Shown piece after piece: positions 28,547 through 36,533 of a stretch of 64,000 nt of DNA. The notes below the pieces were generated by a model. The model searched no databases. It had not been told where the DNA came from and saw only the letters and a list, made by a program, of their open reading frames with translations. This DNA comes from Kribbella italica (GTDB lineage Bacteria > Actinomycetota > Actinomycetes > Propionibacteriales > Kribbellaceae). The DNA lies in the NCBI RefSeq assembly GCF_014205135.1, contig NZ_JACHMY010000001.1:2294001-2358000 (forward strand), read 5' to 3'. The position numbers and the translations under genes are program-made. How positions within the stretch are numbered: the first letter of the stretch is position 1; every line of letters starts with the position of its first letter.

Positions 28547-29335
28547 CTACGGCGCGGGCTTGGTCACCTGCACCTGCGTCTCGGTCCCGTCGAACCCGAG
28601 CGCGCGGTAGATCCGGATCGCCAGGTACTCCGGGTCGGCGACCATCACCAGCGTCTCCGCCTTCAGCTCCCCGAACCCGTACGTCGATGCGGTGTGGACC
28701 AAGGTCGATGCGATCCCCTGCCCGCGATCGTCCGGATGCGTCTGCACGTCCTGGAACCGAGCCACTCCCGCCCCGTCCGTCAACAGCCCGAGCGAAGCCT
28801 GCAGCCGATCGCCGTCGAACGCCCCGAACCACTGCCCGTGCCCCGCCTCGACGACCGCCCGGTGCGCCGCTTCGCGCCGCCGTACGAAGTCCTCGTAGCC
28901 GTCCATCTCCATCGGGTTGGCCGCCAAGGTCAGCCGGACCTGCTGCTCCCAGTCGTCGTCACTCCCCAGAAACCGGTACGCCGACGCCAAGTTCGGCCGC
29001 GCCGGAGGCACCACTGTCCGCGCCGTCATCACCGTACTCCGCTCAACCCGAAACCCGGCGGCCGCCAACTCACCTTCGTCCCCCGCCGCCCCATCCACCG
29101 AATCAATGCCCAGGGCAACATGCCTGGCCCCCGGAAACGTCTCCGCGAAAACCTCCAGCCACCGGTCGAGCTCACCAACACCAATAGCCGACGGCAGCAA
29201 CAAAAAGTTCCCCCACCAGAACGTCGGATTAGCCGGCGTCCGCACAACAACATGGTCGCCCGCGTCCGTCACCTCACTCCCCCCAAGACCAAGCAACAAC
29301 AGATCAGTCCGATAACCAAGGCTGGTGATCTCCAC
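28547..29335 (-). CDS. GNAT N-acetyltransferase
   Basis: A 262-residue protein beginning at GTG 29335 (MEITSLGYRTDLLLLGLGG). The N-terminal 130 residues are a divergent half, and the C-terminal GNAT core has VARFQDVQTHPDDRGQGIASTLVHTAS as the acetyl-CoA loop, followed by ADPEYLAIRIYRALGF. The acceptor is unknown. Its upstream side is a gene-free, repeat-rich region, so its promoter must lie in or near 29336-29450. Confidence 0.82.
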   Translation of the reverse strand: MEITSLGYRTDLLLLGLGGSEVTDAGDHVVVRTPANPTFWWGNFLLLPSAIGVGELDRWLEVFAETFPGARHVALGIDSVDGAAGDEGELAAAGFRVERSTVMTARTVVPPARPNLASAYRFLGSDDDWEQQVRLTLAANPMEMDGYEDFVRRREAAHRAVVEAGHGQWFGAFDGDRLQASLGLLTDGAGVARFQDVQTHPDDRGQGIASTLVHTASTYGFGELKAETLVMVADPEYLAIRIYRALGFDGTETQVQVTKPAP

Positions 29336-29564
29336 GCCTCTATGTTCATCCGCCCGTCAACACATTTGTCCACCCGGCACCGACTTGGATAGCGCACGCA
29401 CAAGCCCGGCACCAGGCGAACGCGGGGACGGGACCAGCGCGGGGACGGAGACGAGTGTGGGCGCCGGGACAGGCCCCGGGGACGGAGACGAGCGGGACGG
29501 CGCGGACGAGTACCGCGCGCGGACGGCGGCCGCGGCATTTCGCGGACGGCGCACCGCGGGCGCG
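29336..29564. other. Gene-free GC-rich low-complexity segment
   Basis: No convincing gene is seen on either strand. The first 60 bases are ordinary and could hold the promoter of the minus-strand GNAT gene. From about 29420 the sequence becomes rich in GGGACG blocks, including the 15-mer GGGGACGGAGACGAG at 29441-29455 and again at 29478-29492. It grades into the tandem array that starts at 29565. Confidence 0.6.
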
Positions 29565-29756
29565 GACCACCGCGGGCGCGGACCACCGCGGGCGCGGACC
29601 ACCGCGGGCGCGGACCACCGCGGGCGCGGACCACCGCGGGCGCGGACCACCGCGGGCGCGGACCACCGCGGGCGCGGACCACCGCGGGCGCGGACCACCG
29701 CGGGCGCGGACCACCGCGGGCGCGGACCACCGCGGGCGCGGACCACCGCGGGCGCG
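29565..29756. repeat. Tandem array A: 12 perfect copies of a 16-bp unit
   Basis: GACCACCGCGGGCGCG is repeated 12 times without a mismatch over 192 bp, preceded by a shortened variant copy at 29551-29564. A 16-bp period shifts the reading frame each unit, and most frames lack stops, so long Arg/Gly-rich or Pro/Ala-rich frames appear by chance. I do not call a protein here. The unit aligns with that of array B (12 of 16 positions plus a one-base insertion). Perfect identity means recent expansion or gene-conversion-like homogenisation. Confidence 0.9.
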
Positions 29757-29871
29757 CCGTCGCCGGAGGCGACTGGCGCTTCCGGGGCGGCCGGCTCCCC
29801 TCCCTCCCCCTCCTATCCCGTCGCCTGCGCAGGCGATGTCGCGTTGCACACCGCCGAAGACAATGCCGCGG
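29757..29871 (-). repeat. Duplicated copy of the downstream gene's 3' end
   Basis: The 38 bases at 29757-29794 are identical to 30073-30110. A second block, 29834-29871, matches 30172-30209 at 32 of 38 positions; that block is the C-terminal coding part of the NAD-binding gene at 30127-31623 (GIVFGGMQRN there, GIVFGGVQRD here). The middle has diverged. It is a decaying partial duplicate lying between the two tandem arrays. Confidence 0.8.
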
Positions 29872-29885
29872 ACCAGCGGGACGCG

Positions 29886-30072
29886 GGCGAGCACGGGACG
29901 CGGATGAGCACGGGACGCGGATGAGCACGGGACGCGGATGAGCACGGGACGCGGATGAGCACGGGACGCGGATGAGCACGGGACGCGGATGAGCACGGGA
30001 CGCGGATGAGCACGGGACGCGGATGAGCACGGGACGCGGATGAGCACGGGACGCGGATGAGCACGGGACGCG
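29886..30072. repeat. Tandem array B: 10 perfect copies of a 17-bp unit plus one variant
   Basis: GATGAGCACGGGACGCG is repeated 10 times without mismatch at 29903-30072, preceded by a variant copy (GGCGAG start) at 29886-29902. The array abuts the same 38-base sequence (CCGTCGCCGGAGG...) that follows array A. Its unit is related to that of array A. It reaches to within 55 bases of the stop of the minus-strand NAD-binding gene, so it lies in that gene's 3' flank. Confidence 0.9.
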
Positions 30073-30126
30073 CCGTCGCCGGAGGCGACTGGCGCTTCCG
30101 GGGCGGCCGGCCCCTCCCGCCCCCGC

Positions 30127-31623
30127 CTATTCCCGTGTGCCGGGCGGTGCAGTCGCTTCGGCTGCTCTCGCGATGTTGCGTTGCATGCCGCCGAAAACGA
30201 TGCCGTGGAACGGTTTGATCGCCCACCAGTACAGCTGGCCCGGCAAGCCGCGGGGGTGGAAGAGCGCCCGCTGGCGGAAGATCGTGCGGCCTTCGGTGTC
30301 CTCGTCGACGATCAGTTCCAGCCAGGCCAGGCCGGGGAGGCGCATTTCGGCGCGTAGGCGCAACAGCTTCGGTTCGTCCATGTCCTCGACTCGCCACCAG
30401 TCGAGTGGGTCGCCGACCTCCAGGTCCTTCGGGTTGCGGCGACCGCGGCGCAGGCCCGGGCCGCCGAAGACCCGGTCGAGCAGGCCGCGTGCCCACCAGC
30501 CGAGGCGCCACGAGTACCACCCGTTGCCGCCGCCGATGCCTTCGATCACCGACCAGAGCTGCTCGGGAGACGCGGAGATCGCGCTCTCCCGCTCGTCGAC
30601 GTACAGCGATCCACCCGCCCAGTCCGGATCGCTCGGCAACGGATCACTCGGCACACCCGGCGTCGCAGCCGACGCCCAGCTCGTCGTCACGTCGAGGTCG
30701 TGGATCCGCTGCAGCGCAAGTTCGACCGCCCGGTCGAACCCGATCAGCCCCGGCTCCGGATCAGGCACATACCGAGCGAGGTCCTGCTCCTTGCGCACCA
30801 CCTCATGGATCAAACTGTCGACCAACGGTCGAGCGATGCTGTTCGGCACCGGCGTGACGAGTCCGACCCAATGGCTCGACAGCGACGGCGTGAGCAGCGG
30901 CAGCGTGACGATCCGCCGGCGCTTGAGATGCGCCGCGTCGGCGTACCGCTGCATCATGTCCCGGTACGTCAGCACGTCCGGCCCACCGATGTCGAACCCG
31001 CGATTCACCTCAGCCGGCATCGATGCGCTTCCGACCAGATAGTGCAGCACATCCCGTACGGCGATCGGCTGGATCCTCGTCCCCAACCAGCGCGGCGTCA
31101 CCATCACCGGCAACCGATCGGTCAGGTACCTGAGCATCTCGAACGACGCCGACCCCGACCCGAGAATCACCGCCGCCCGCAACACCGTCGTCGGTACGCC
31201 GGACGCCAGCAGGATCTCGCCGACCTCACGCCGCGAGCCGAGATGCGGCGAAAGCTCCTCGCCTTCGGGGTAGAGCCCGCCGAGGTACACGATCCGCCCG
31301 ACGCCGGCCTCCCGCGCCGCCGCCCCGAACGTGCGCGCAGTGTGCCGGTCCCGAGCCTCGAACTTCTTCCCGGTCCCGAGCGCGTGGATCAGGTAGTAGG
31401 CGACATCCACGCCCTCGAGCGCAGCCTCGACCTCGTGCCGCTCCCCCGCGTCGGCCTCGACGATCTCCACCTCGCCGTACCAGTCGCGGCTCTCCAGCCG
31501 CCGCGGATTCCGGGCCATCGCGCGGACGCGGTAGCCGGCCTTGAGCAGTTCGGGAACCAGGCGGCCGCCGATGTAGCCGGTCACACCGGTGACGAGGACG
31601 AGCTTCTGAGAGGTCACGCCCAC
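30127..31623 (-). CDS. NAD(P)-binding epimerase-like protein with C-terminal DUF2867
   Basis: A protein of about 498 residues. Residues 1-290 are an atypical SDR/NmrA-like Rossmann domain (LVLVTGVTGYIGGRLVPELL, AYYLIHALG, RIVYLGGLYP). The C-terminal 170 residues match DUF2867 (SLYVDERESAISASPEQLWSVIEGIGG, GDPLDWWRVE, FHPRGLPGQLYWWAIKPFHGIVFGGM), a SRPBCC-like fold. The start is uncertain: GTG 31623 or 31617 fits best, since ATG 31674 lies in the divergent operator region without a ribosome site. The last codons are duplicated at 29834-29871. It is divergent from an ArsR-type gene that may control it. Confidence 0.85.
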   Translation of the reverse strand: MGVTSQKLVLVTGVTGYIGGRLVPELLKAGYRVRAMARNPRRLESRDWYGEVEIVEADAGERHEVEAALEGVDVAYYLIHALGTGKKFEARDRHTARTFGAAAREAGVGRIVYLGGLYPEGEELSPHLGSRREVGEILLASGVPTTVLRAAVILGSGSASFEMLRYLTDRLPVMVTPRWLGTRIQPIAVRDVLHYLVGSASMPAEVNRGFDIGGPDVLTYRDMMQRYADAAHLKRRRIVTLPLLTPSLSSHWVGLVTPVPNSIARPLVDSLIHEVVRKEQDLARYVPDPEPGLIGFDRAVELALQRIHDLDVTTSWASAATPGVPSDPLPSDPDWAGGSLYVDERESAISASPEQLWSVIEGIGGGNGWYSWRLGWWARGLLDRVFGGPGLRRGRRNPKDLEVGDPLDWWRVEDMDEPKLLRLRAEMRLPGLAWLELIVDEDTEGRTIFRQRALFHPRGLPGQLYWWAIKPFHGIVFGGMQRNIARAAEATAPPGTRE

Positions 31624-32570: not shown

Positions 32571-32897
32571 CTACTTCTCGACCGGCCCCTTCTTCGTACT
32601 GAGGGACTCCTGGTAAATGTCGGCGTACGTCCGTGAGTCCTTGATCAGGCCGTCACAGAAGGCCGCGACGTCGGTGCCGATGAGTTCCAGGACTCCCTTG
32701 CCGGCCGCGACGCCCTCCTCGAAGAAGTCGACGATCCCGGACAGCAGGTCCCCATCGGTCAGGTCGACCGGGCCGACCTTGAAGAAGTACTTCTGCATTT
32801 CCTTGTAGACGATCTGGTAGTCCGGCGGGAGCGCCTTCACCCGCGCCTGGTGCGCCCGCCATTGCTTCTTGCCCTCGATGATGTCGTGGATGCCCAT
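32571..32897 (-). CDS. DUF1048 protein (second of a pair)
   Basis: A 108-residue soluble protein, MGIHDIIEGKKQWRAHQARVKALPPDYQ..., similar to the DUF1048 family, which has no established biochemical role. The sequence is helical, with a conserved LPPDY segment and an FFEEGVAAGKGVLELIGTDVAAFCDGLI core. It starts one base after the stop of a second DUF1048 gene, in an operon led by a PadR repressor, so the pair is likely produced together. Confidence 0.82.
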   Translation of the reverse strand: MGIHDIIEGKKQWRAHQARVKALPPDYQIVYKEMQKYFFKVGPVDLTDGDLLSGIVDFFEEGVAAGKGVLELIGTDVAAFCDGLIKDSRTYADIYQESLSTKKGPVEK

Positions 32898-32898
32898 G

Positions 32899-33255
32899 TC
32901 AGCCTCCCAGCCGTCCCAGCTTCTTCGCGACGTTCTTGTTCAACTGCTCGCGCCACCGGTCGCGGTAGGTCCGGCTTCCCTCGCCCCCGGCCAGTGCCGC
33001 ACAGAACCCCGCGACGTCGTCCCCCAGTACTTCGTCGACGCCCTGCCCCTGCGCCGCGGTCTCTTCGAGCAGCCCCAGGGCGCCGTCGAGAATCGGCATC
33101 AGGTTCCGCCCGGTGAAGTCGCCGTACGGAAGGAGCTCCGCCTTGATCTGCTCCCACGCCGCCCGGTGATCGGCCGGCAACGCCTGTGCCCGACCGTCGA
33201 ACGCCTTGTACTCCCTGGTGAGATCGCTACCGGTGATGGTCTCCCAGATGTTCAT
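32899..33255 (-). CDS. DUF1048 protein (first of a pair)
   Basis: A 118-residue protein starting at ATG 33255 (MNIWETITGSDLTREYKAF). It shares the family layout with the following gene: LPADH, a LLPYGDF/ILDGALGLLEETAAQGQGVDEVLGDDVAGFCAAL core and a basic C-terminus (NKNVAKKLGRLGG). It may be an ancient duplicate of its neighbour. The ATG overlaps the stop of the PadR gene by four bases (ATGA). DUF1048 genes are commonly found downstream of PadR regulators; function unknown. Confidence 0.82.
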   Translation of the reverse strand: MNIWETITGSDLTREYKAFDGRAQALPADHRAAWEQIKAELLPYGDFTGRNLMPILDGALGLLEETAAQGQGVDEVLGDDVAGFCAALAGGEGSRTYRDRWREQLNKNVAKKLGRLGG

Positions 33256-33578
33256 CTCCCGCCCTCCTTGAGCTTCTCGATCCGCGTGGTCACGTACTCC
33301 CACTTCGCCCAGAACGTCGCCAGCTCCCGACGCCCCGCGGCGTTGAGCGCATAGAACTTCCGCGGCGGCCCCTGCTCGGACGGCCGCTTCGTCACCTGAA
33401 CCAGCTTGTTCCGCTCCAGCCGCAACAGGATCGTGTACACGGTCCCTTCCACGACGTCACCGAACCCCAACTCGTTCAACTGCCGCGTGATGGCGTACCC
33501 GTAGGTCTCCTCACCACCGATGATCTCGAGCACACACCCTTCCAGCGTGCCCTTCAACATCTCCGTCAGGTCATCCAT
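33252..33578 (-). CDS. PadR family transcriptional regulator
   Basis: A 108-residue minimal PadR (subfamily 2). ATG 33578 starts MDDLTEMLKGTLEGCVLEII; the winged helix follows with ETYGYAITRQLNELGFGDVVEGTVYTILLRLERNKLV and the PRKFYALNAAGRREL wing. A C-terminal helix (WAKWEYVTTRIEKL) would give the dimer. It leads an operon with two DUF1048 genes. Three copies of a GGTACTCGGT half-site lie 25-70 bases upstream, very likely its autoregulatory operator. Confidence 0.92.
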   Translation of the reverse strand: MDDLTEMLKGTLEGCVLEIIGGEETYGYAITRQLNELGFGDVVEGTVYTILLRLERNKLVQVTKRPSEQGPPRKFYALNAAGRRELATFWAKWEYVTTRIEKLKEGGR

Positions 33579-33648: not shown

Positions 33649-34197
33649 GCCAAAGTCCTGCAAGGTACCGATCCGAGTGGACCCGGGTCAGCCGACCACA
33701 CCCGCCCGTCCGACAACGAGCGTCACCTCACAGACCAACTCCCCCAACCACCCGAGTCCCTCCGGCGACCGGAACAAACCGTCCGGGCCGACCTCGCCCG
33801 GCCAATCTCGCCCACCACCTCAGGCCACCGCCTTCGCCCGCTACCTGACGCCACCGCCAACGCCCACCGCCGGGCACGTCACCGCCGTCGCCCACCGCCT
33901 CAGGCCATCGGTCGGGCGGGTGCTGAGCCGGCTGGACAAGGACGGACTGGCGGCGGCGCGAGGTGGGCAGGCGCGAATCAGTCGAGAGCGAGGCAATCGG
34001 GGCGCAAGCCGGTCCGGTGCGACGCGACGACGTGGTCGGGGGCGGGGCAATCGGGGCGCAAGCCGGTCCGGTGCGACGCGACGACGTGGTCGGGCGCAAG
34101 GCAGTTGGGCGCGACGGGAGGTTGGTCGGCGCGGGGTTGGCAGCTTGGCTAGCTGGGGTGGGCTGGCTTGTGGGGGCTCGGCTGGTGCTGTGGGCTG
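33649..34197. other. Gene-free region with a 49-bp direct repeat
   Basis: About 550 bases between the PadR promoter and the end of the RecQ gene hold no gene I can support. Frames on both strands are open only because of composition and give Pro/Arg/Ser-rich nonsense. The first part is C/A-rich, and the last part is G-rich. A 49-bp block at 33992-34040 is repeated exactly at 34046-34094 (54-bp period), followed by a degraded third copy. Confidence 0.6.
33992..34094. repeat. Two exact 49-bp tandem copies
   Basis: GGCAATCGGGGCGCAAGCC...GACGTGGTCGGG is present at 33992-34040 and, without change, at 34046-34094. After 34095 the sequence continues with a weak third copy (GGCAGTTGGGCGC). It lies downstream of the RecQ stop on that gene's strand. 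Confidence 0.85.
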
Positions 34198-36315: not shown

Positions 36316-36533
36316 GCCAAAGACCCTAGACGCCCGCACCCCCATCCCGTTGGCCCCGGACCCTCGTCTGTGGAAAACCCGCTGAAGGAAAGAAGAGAAG
36401 GAGGGCCGAGCGGGCCGGGGCCGCGCCGCGGGCCCAGGGGCCGAGGCCGGGTGCCCGGGGCTAGGGGCCTGGGGTCCAGGGGCTGGGCGCCGGGACCTGG
36501 GGGCGGCGGGGCTGGGACCCGGGCCGGCGCTGG

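Follow-up and report, generated by a model that had tools for sequence, protein, structure and literature searches.

Several described repeat families bear on the locus presented here. Rickettsia palindromic elements (RPE) are small stem-loop repeats that lie in unrelated protein genes and keep the reading frame, as summarised in PMC10969869 (citing Ogata et al. 2000, 2002). Cod-2 is a small repeat described from the high-GC Gram-positive bacterium Corynebacterium diphtheriae, where it occurs in many coding sequences and in different frames (PMC2267715). It is 32 bp long and has ~40 members, according to the same source (PMC2267715). REP/BIME sequences are dispersed hairpins of ~60 nt, often found behind genes, and REPs are extragenic. 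Among tandem repeats, the MIRU-VNTR loci of Mycobacterium tuberculosis are minisatellite-like intergenic arrays in an actinobacterium; one longer unit is common to all MIRU loci. PMC12817950 deals with variation in the copy number of tandem repeats in M. tuberculosis. The tandem repeats of Borgs are described as recent, independently formed arrays, both intergenic and within genes (PMC9879509).

Here, we describe twin minisatellites and an associated stem-loop element of the soil bacterium Kribbella italica, found in a window of 64,000 nucleotides (the whole stretch of DNA that was analysed). Like RPE, the Kribbella element keeps the frame, adding 19-43 aa to proteins. Unlike RPE, it is shorter (~57-129 bp), GC-rich with a purine tract and hosted by an actinomycete; genes traverse it on either strand, the frame varies, no peptide is conserved, and it is tied to tandem duplications and arrays. 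The element works like the coding-tolerant stem-loop repeats that it resembles, but without their conserved-peptide feature. Compared by description only, Cod-2 is likewise a small stem-loop repeat within coding sequences; array seeding does not figure in the account of Cod-2 consulted in PMC2267715. The element shares with REP/BIME sequences its dispersed hairpin of ~60 nt and its frequent position behind genes. However, several copies are intragenic, and the GGAG upstream of the hairpin is not adjacent to it, the GCCGGYCGCCCCGAA core standing between them. The Kribbella arrays, like MIRU-VNTR, are minisatellite-like, intergenic and actinobacterial, but their units are of 12-22 bp, locus-specific and start at a hairpin. 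Borg repeats are described as A-enriched and pervasive, whereas the Kribbella arrays are GC-rich and tied to the stem-loop element.

Two perfect minisatellites behind a DUF2867 gene

The features of the locus are collected in Table 1. On the minus strand, starting from the gene side, the order is DUF2867 gene end, stop codon, element, array B, diverged gene-end copy, element, array A, degenerate repeats and GNAT gene. A preliminary description had reported two perfect arrays, each followed by the same 38 bases and a copy of the gene end. These observations proved exact. Array A has precisely 12 copies of the 16-bp unit GACCACCGCGGGCGCG (29565-29756) and array B has precisely 10 copies of the 17-bp unit GATGAGCACGGGACGCG (29903-30072), with one additional variant unit at its distal edge. 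The bases 29757-29794 are the same as 30073-30110, and the exact identity extends beyond these 38 bases to 43 bp (29753-29795 and 30069-30111, an offset of 316 bp). The gene-end copy is genuine, since 35 of 43 bases agree over its core. In both arrays the units are contiguous and head-to-tail, a form typical of minisatellites or VNTRs (~10-60 bp). The TRF scores are 410 for array A and 378 for array B; any other array in the window scores at most 211.

Table 1. Features of the twin-array locus, in window coordinates.
Feature	Position	Strand	Basis or detail
NAD(P)-binding/DUF2867 gene, 515 aa	30127..31674	-	Pfam PF13460 and PF11066
Element copy 2	30071..30130	-	75.6 bits with model R1, seed member; adjoins array B
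Array B	29877..30072	-	minus-strand unit TCCCGTGCTCATCCGCG; 17 bp, 11.5 copies
Decayed copy of DUF2867 gene 3' end	29820..29866	-	35/43 core bases agree
Element copy 1	29755..29816	-	74.4 bits with model R1, seed member; adjoins array A
Array A	29552..29756	-	minus-strand unit CCCGCGGTGGTCCGCG phased on hairpin base; 16 bp, 12.8 copies, 100% identical
Degenerate GC-rich repeat remnants beside array A	29400..29551	.	37-bp two-copy family and 16-bp register
Lineage-specific gained segment, ~790 bp, ends approximate	29371..30165	-	alignment to the syntenic site of Kribbella sp. ALI-6-A
GNAT acetyltransferase gene, downstream	28547..29335	-	Pfam PF00583; synteny

The K. italica genome is a single contig of 8.885 Mb. 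Searched with the locus, it gave no further copy of array A or B, apart from a 70% match at 1133.7 kb. The units thus did not turn out to be common, unrelated repeats without a shared flank. The reported likeness of the two units, at 12 of 16 positions, is present but is weaker evidence than claimed: with free rotation, this likeness is reached by 3% of random genomic 16/17-mer pairs and by 4.5% of shuffles. The figure falls to 0.3% if the units are phased on the hairpin base, a phasing picked post hoc. A common ancestor of the two units is possible.

Two further candidates were rejected. The open frames that run across the arrays are mechanical and do not point to a coding role. A G-quadruplex motif occurs on the minus strand in both gene-end copies; it was given no weight because such motifs have a background of 1.0-1.7 per 10 kb and the copies do not count as independent observations.

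Repeats of other kinds were seen elsewhere. Intergenic arrays with 13/26-bp and 54-bp units lie beside a RecQ-like gene (window 33808-33907 and 33981-34103), without the element, and upstream of that gene is a G-rich block of degenerate repeats that contains two G-quadruplex motifs (36403-36503). Kribbella sp. ALI-6-A has a perfect 12-bp array, CTCTGTTCTTCT x11, which is not GC-rich and not beside the element (G006:C6 404092-404223).

The arrays lie in a segment gained by K. italica

We compared the locus with those of congeners, in particular Kribbella sp. ALI-6-A (G006). Orthologs of the DUF2867 gene are present in 18 congeners and no array adjoins them wherever the downstream side is covered. 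The gap between the DUF2867 and GNAT genes is array-free and only 20-60 bp in G006, G020, G004, G024 and G008. In K. italica the GNAT gene is now ~790 bp from its former neighbour. Hence, ~790 bp were gained in the K. italica lineage. Alignment to ALI-6-A places the gain within the last DUF2867 codons, and the last residues of the gene have been altered by the insertion. The ALI-6-A frame ends ...AAATCGTCTTGA; of that, AAATGTGTTGACGG persists near 29354-29370, beside the GNAT start. Also in the window, two adjacent DUF1048 genes (32571-33303) form an apparent tandem paralogue pair.

A dispersed stem-loop element adjoins each array

The common part of the twin modules is a dispersed stem-loop element, not 'array plus gene end'. 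Thus, of the duplicated module proposed earlier, the duplication of gene 3' end and flank stands, and a second locus is alike, but the array is not the core of what is shared. The element consensus consists of a purine tract, GCCGGYCGCCCCGAA and a hairpin with the loop TCC, TTC or TGC; the hairpin is an imperfect palindrome within the ~20-65 nt range. In copy 1 the parts are a purine tract, GCCGGCCGCCCC and the hairpin CGCC-A-GTCGCC-TCC-GGCGAC-GGCG. Copy 2 sits immediately past the DUF2867 stop codon. The hairpin pattern has 2 matches in the window and 0 in 100 shuffles.

To take a census, we built a covariance model (R1) from five element copies, mostly from K. italica, and scored the best 150 candidates per genome. 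Among these, 15 copies in K. italica, spread over 13 loci, reach 30 bits or more, and 11 of the 15, scoring 31-50 bits, are outside the seed. Nine congeners have 0-2 copies each among their best 150 candidates. A reversed-sequence control model (R2) scored at most 23.8 bits in K. italica and at most 29.1 bits in ten genomes. The stem sequence varies among copies and pairing is kept: 97.5% of cells in the stem alignment are paired, compared with 70.8% in shuffles, and 45 cells show double changes, compared with 12.4. The slid and shuffled controls matter here because the model itself guided the alignment used for covariation. On its own, the short core GGAGCCGGYCGCCCCSGA stays at background (54 matches in 38 Kribbella genomes, the control giving 73) and so cannot define the family; enrichment is seen only for purine tract, core and hairpin combined. 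Among 84,980 species genomes, the exact hairpin pattern was found in Kribbella sp. ALI-6-A only. No transposase (RAYT aside), target duplication or terminal repeat was found for the element. The terminal inverted repeats and target-site duplication of a MITE were not seen at the aligned empty sites, where the species compared may be too diverged to reveal them.

Searching the genome with the locus also recovered two more copies of the flank. These lie at 8724.8-8725.1 kb with 220 bp between them, next to an unrelated GNAT gene and 6.4 Mb from the window locus. The hairpin and purine tract there are 87-90% identical to those of the window. This second locus (8724.7-8725.1 kb) has the order gene end, element, array, decayed gene end, element and different array. 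One array has a 22-bp unit (~2 copies) and the other a perfect 12-bp unit (5.3 copies); these are unlike each other and unlike A and B. Hence, the arrays seem to have formed afresh at each element and not to have been copied and re-homogenised, as had been proposed. What remains of that proposal is that the units are uniform within each array, which points to a recent change in copy number, in agreement with the preliminary description. The ALI-6-A counterpart of the second locus has a short spacer and an ordinary hairpin. A third twin, with a related flank, is at 8663.5-8663.8 kb.

At all four hairpins of the window and second loci, an array starts at the hairpin base, with a different unit each time. 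The units behind genes measure 12, 16, 17 and ~22 bp, mostly not multiples of three, and end in CGCG, as does the hairpin base.

Just past the ilvD stop codon (1133.4 kb), a hairpin unrelated to the element has a further array, with a 14-bp unit, starting at its base. The element is therefore not required for an array, and this locus suggests that the hairpin, rather than the particular element sequence, matters. Most other arrays in 800 kb of genome have no obvious hairpin adjoining them, and we rejected the notion that arrays generally abut hairpins. At the ilvD locus (L138, 1133460-1134300) the hairpin is perfect and is followed by ~9 copies of TGCACCACCGCGCG, then by at least 700 bp of decaying repeats. 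ALI-6-A has a plain short spacer at this position.

The element is inserted in frame within genes

Comparison with syntenic empty sites identified the element as an in-frame insertion at five K. italica loci, one of them shared with ALI-6-A, and at one ALI-6-A locus. Relative to ALI-6-A, K. italica has extra insertions of 19 aa (7439993), 43 aa (7422051), ~27 aa (1679555) and ~42 aa (7846860). The insertion at 4715739, of 21 aa, is common to ALI-6-A and absent from G043. The frame is open in each case. In ALI-6-A the element interrupts a BadF/BadG-type kinase gene, again in frame (L063 1180-1270), and the same gene is uninterrupted in six Kribbella genomes, K. italica included. Inside genes the repeats step by 36 and 39 bp, which preserves the frame. 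The intragenic copies encode no conserved peptide; they are read on both strands and give unlike peptides.

The insertion at 7422051 (L177 2051-2190) is in an exporter gene that we take, by eye, to be YeiH-like. Its 43-aa insert is made of three 36-bp hairpin-bearing repeats, GAAETAGGFAAA. Element-like sequence is also present at one linker of an apparent altronate dehydratase-like gene in both G024 (L189) and G004 (L190). Because this site is common to the two, some insertions predate the species.

Tandem duplication around the element

We compared each 500-bp neighbourhood with itself for direct repeats. Such a repeat was detected at 9 of the 15 K. italica element loci. The control rate was at most 2.1% of 1500 random segments and at most 3.9% of segments centred on non-coding DNA, the latter a small control (n=233). 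Considering non-seed loci only, the element lies within a local tandem duplication at 7 of 13 (binomial P 2.5e-9 against random segments and 1.8e-7 against non-coding segments). Between the twin modules of the window, the hairpin block has 0/43 differences, compared with 8/43 in the adjoining gene-end copy (Fisher P 0.005). The block is therefore constrained or homogenised.

Discussion

On balance, the twin arrays are probably by-products of a dispersed stem-loop element that inserted at a gene 3' end, with module duplication and slippage at the hairpin base. The element would have entered the last DUF2867 codons; the gain of the segment is seen in the synteny. Gene end and element would then have been duplicated in tandem. 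The duplication itself is observed, and its cause was perhaps replication slippage or template switching at a stalled hairpin. At the hairpin base, polymerase slippage over the neighbouring 12-22 nt, made possible by the short direct repeat CGCG, would produce an array with a locus-specific unit; slippage at this point is suggested by arrays that begin at the hairpin base and by units that end in CGCG. The arrays may still be expanding or being homogenised, because their units are perfect while the adjoining gene-end copies differ by 19%. We infer stalling, CGCG-based slippage and ongoing turnover from the sequence. The arrays themselves are regarded as neutral by-product sequence.

An unlikely alternative is that these are ordinary GC-rich intergenic minisatellites; a single unequal exchange would have duplicated array and gene end, and the hairpin would be a copied transcription terminator. 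Kribbella gene 3' ends do often carry GC-rich hairpins, and ALI-6-A has plain ones behind both ilvD and the GNAT gene of the second locus. The A and B units are somewhat similar (P 0.003-0.045) and arrays without the element exist. However, a single local duplication does not sit well with the recurrence of hairpin and purine tract beside an unrelated gene at the distant second locus, and the element hairpin differs from the hairpin of the syntenic ALI-6-A loci. Moreover, the element is found as in-frame insertions within genes, where a terminator is unexpected. Since these intragenic copies have largely been shown to be real insertions of one family, the terminator explanation is largely countered.

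The DUF2867 and GNAT genes are on the same strand, 20-60 bp apart in relatives, and strong hairpins and repeats now part them. A putative role of the hairpins would be to insulate the transcription of one of these former neighbours from that of the other. It is a different and improbable proposition that the 3' flank is selected, with repeat number tuning termination or read-through from DUF2867 to GNAT, as phase variation or contingency. The 16- and 17-bp units are outside every reading frame of the gene, a standard terminator and promoter scan detected no U-tract terminator, and there is no conservation in relatives.

Perfect GC-rich tandem units, of which the arrays consist, are error-prone in assembly. 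An assembly or polishing artefact is nevertheless very improbable: the arrays are short, at ~200 bp each, differ in unit and have distinct flanks, and the matching anatomy was independently assembled at the second locus. Array A folds into repeated hairpins on the plus strand (z -2.7), but a structured non-coding RNA, as suggested earlier, or a repeat array of a defence or CRISPR-like system, is scarcely credible, given that neither the locus nor twelve element loci match Rfam, array B folds no better than shuffles, the units are contiguous and spacer-free, unlike CRISPR repeats, and none of the neighbouring genes examined is cas-like.

Returning to the stem-loop element, we tentatively propose an undescribed Kribbella family that spreads to gene ends and, in frame, to gene interiors, and whose hairpin repeatedly triggers tandem duplication and minisatellites. 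If true, one type of element would yield new C-termini, loop insertions and arrays. How perfect minisatellites begin in bacteria is difficult to observe, as their earliest stages tend to be lost. In K. italica, two genes are accompanied by four element copies in all, each with a different array that starts at the hairpin base, and the syntenic sites of relatives preserve the arrangement that preceded insertion. The result would be a natural and testable series, from element insertion through module duplication to array growth, and a counterpart, in an actinobacterium, of the Rickettsia elements by which proteins are extended yet stay intact.
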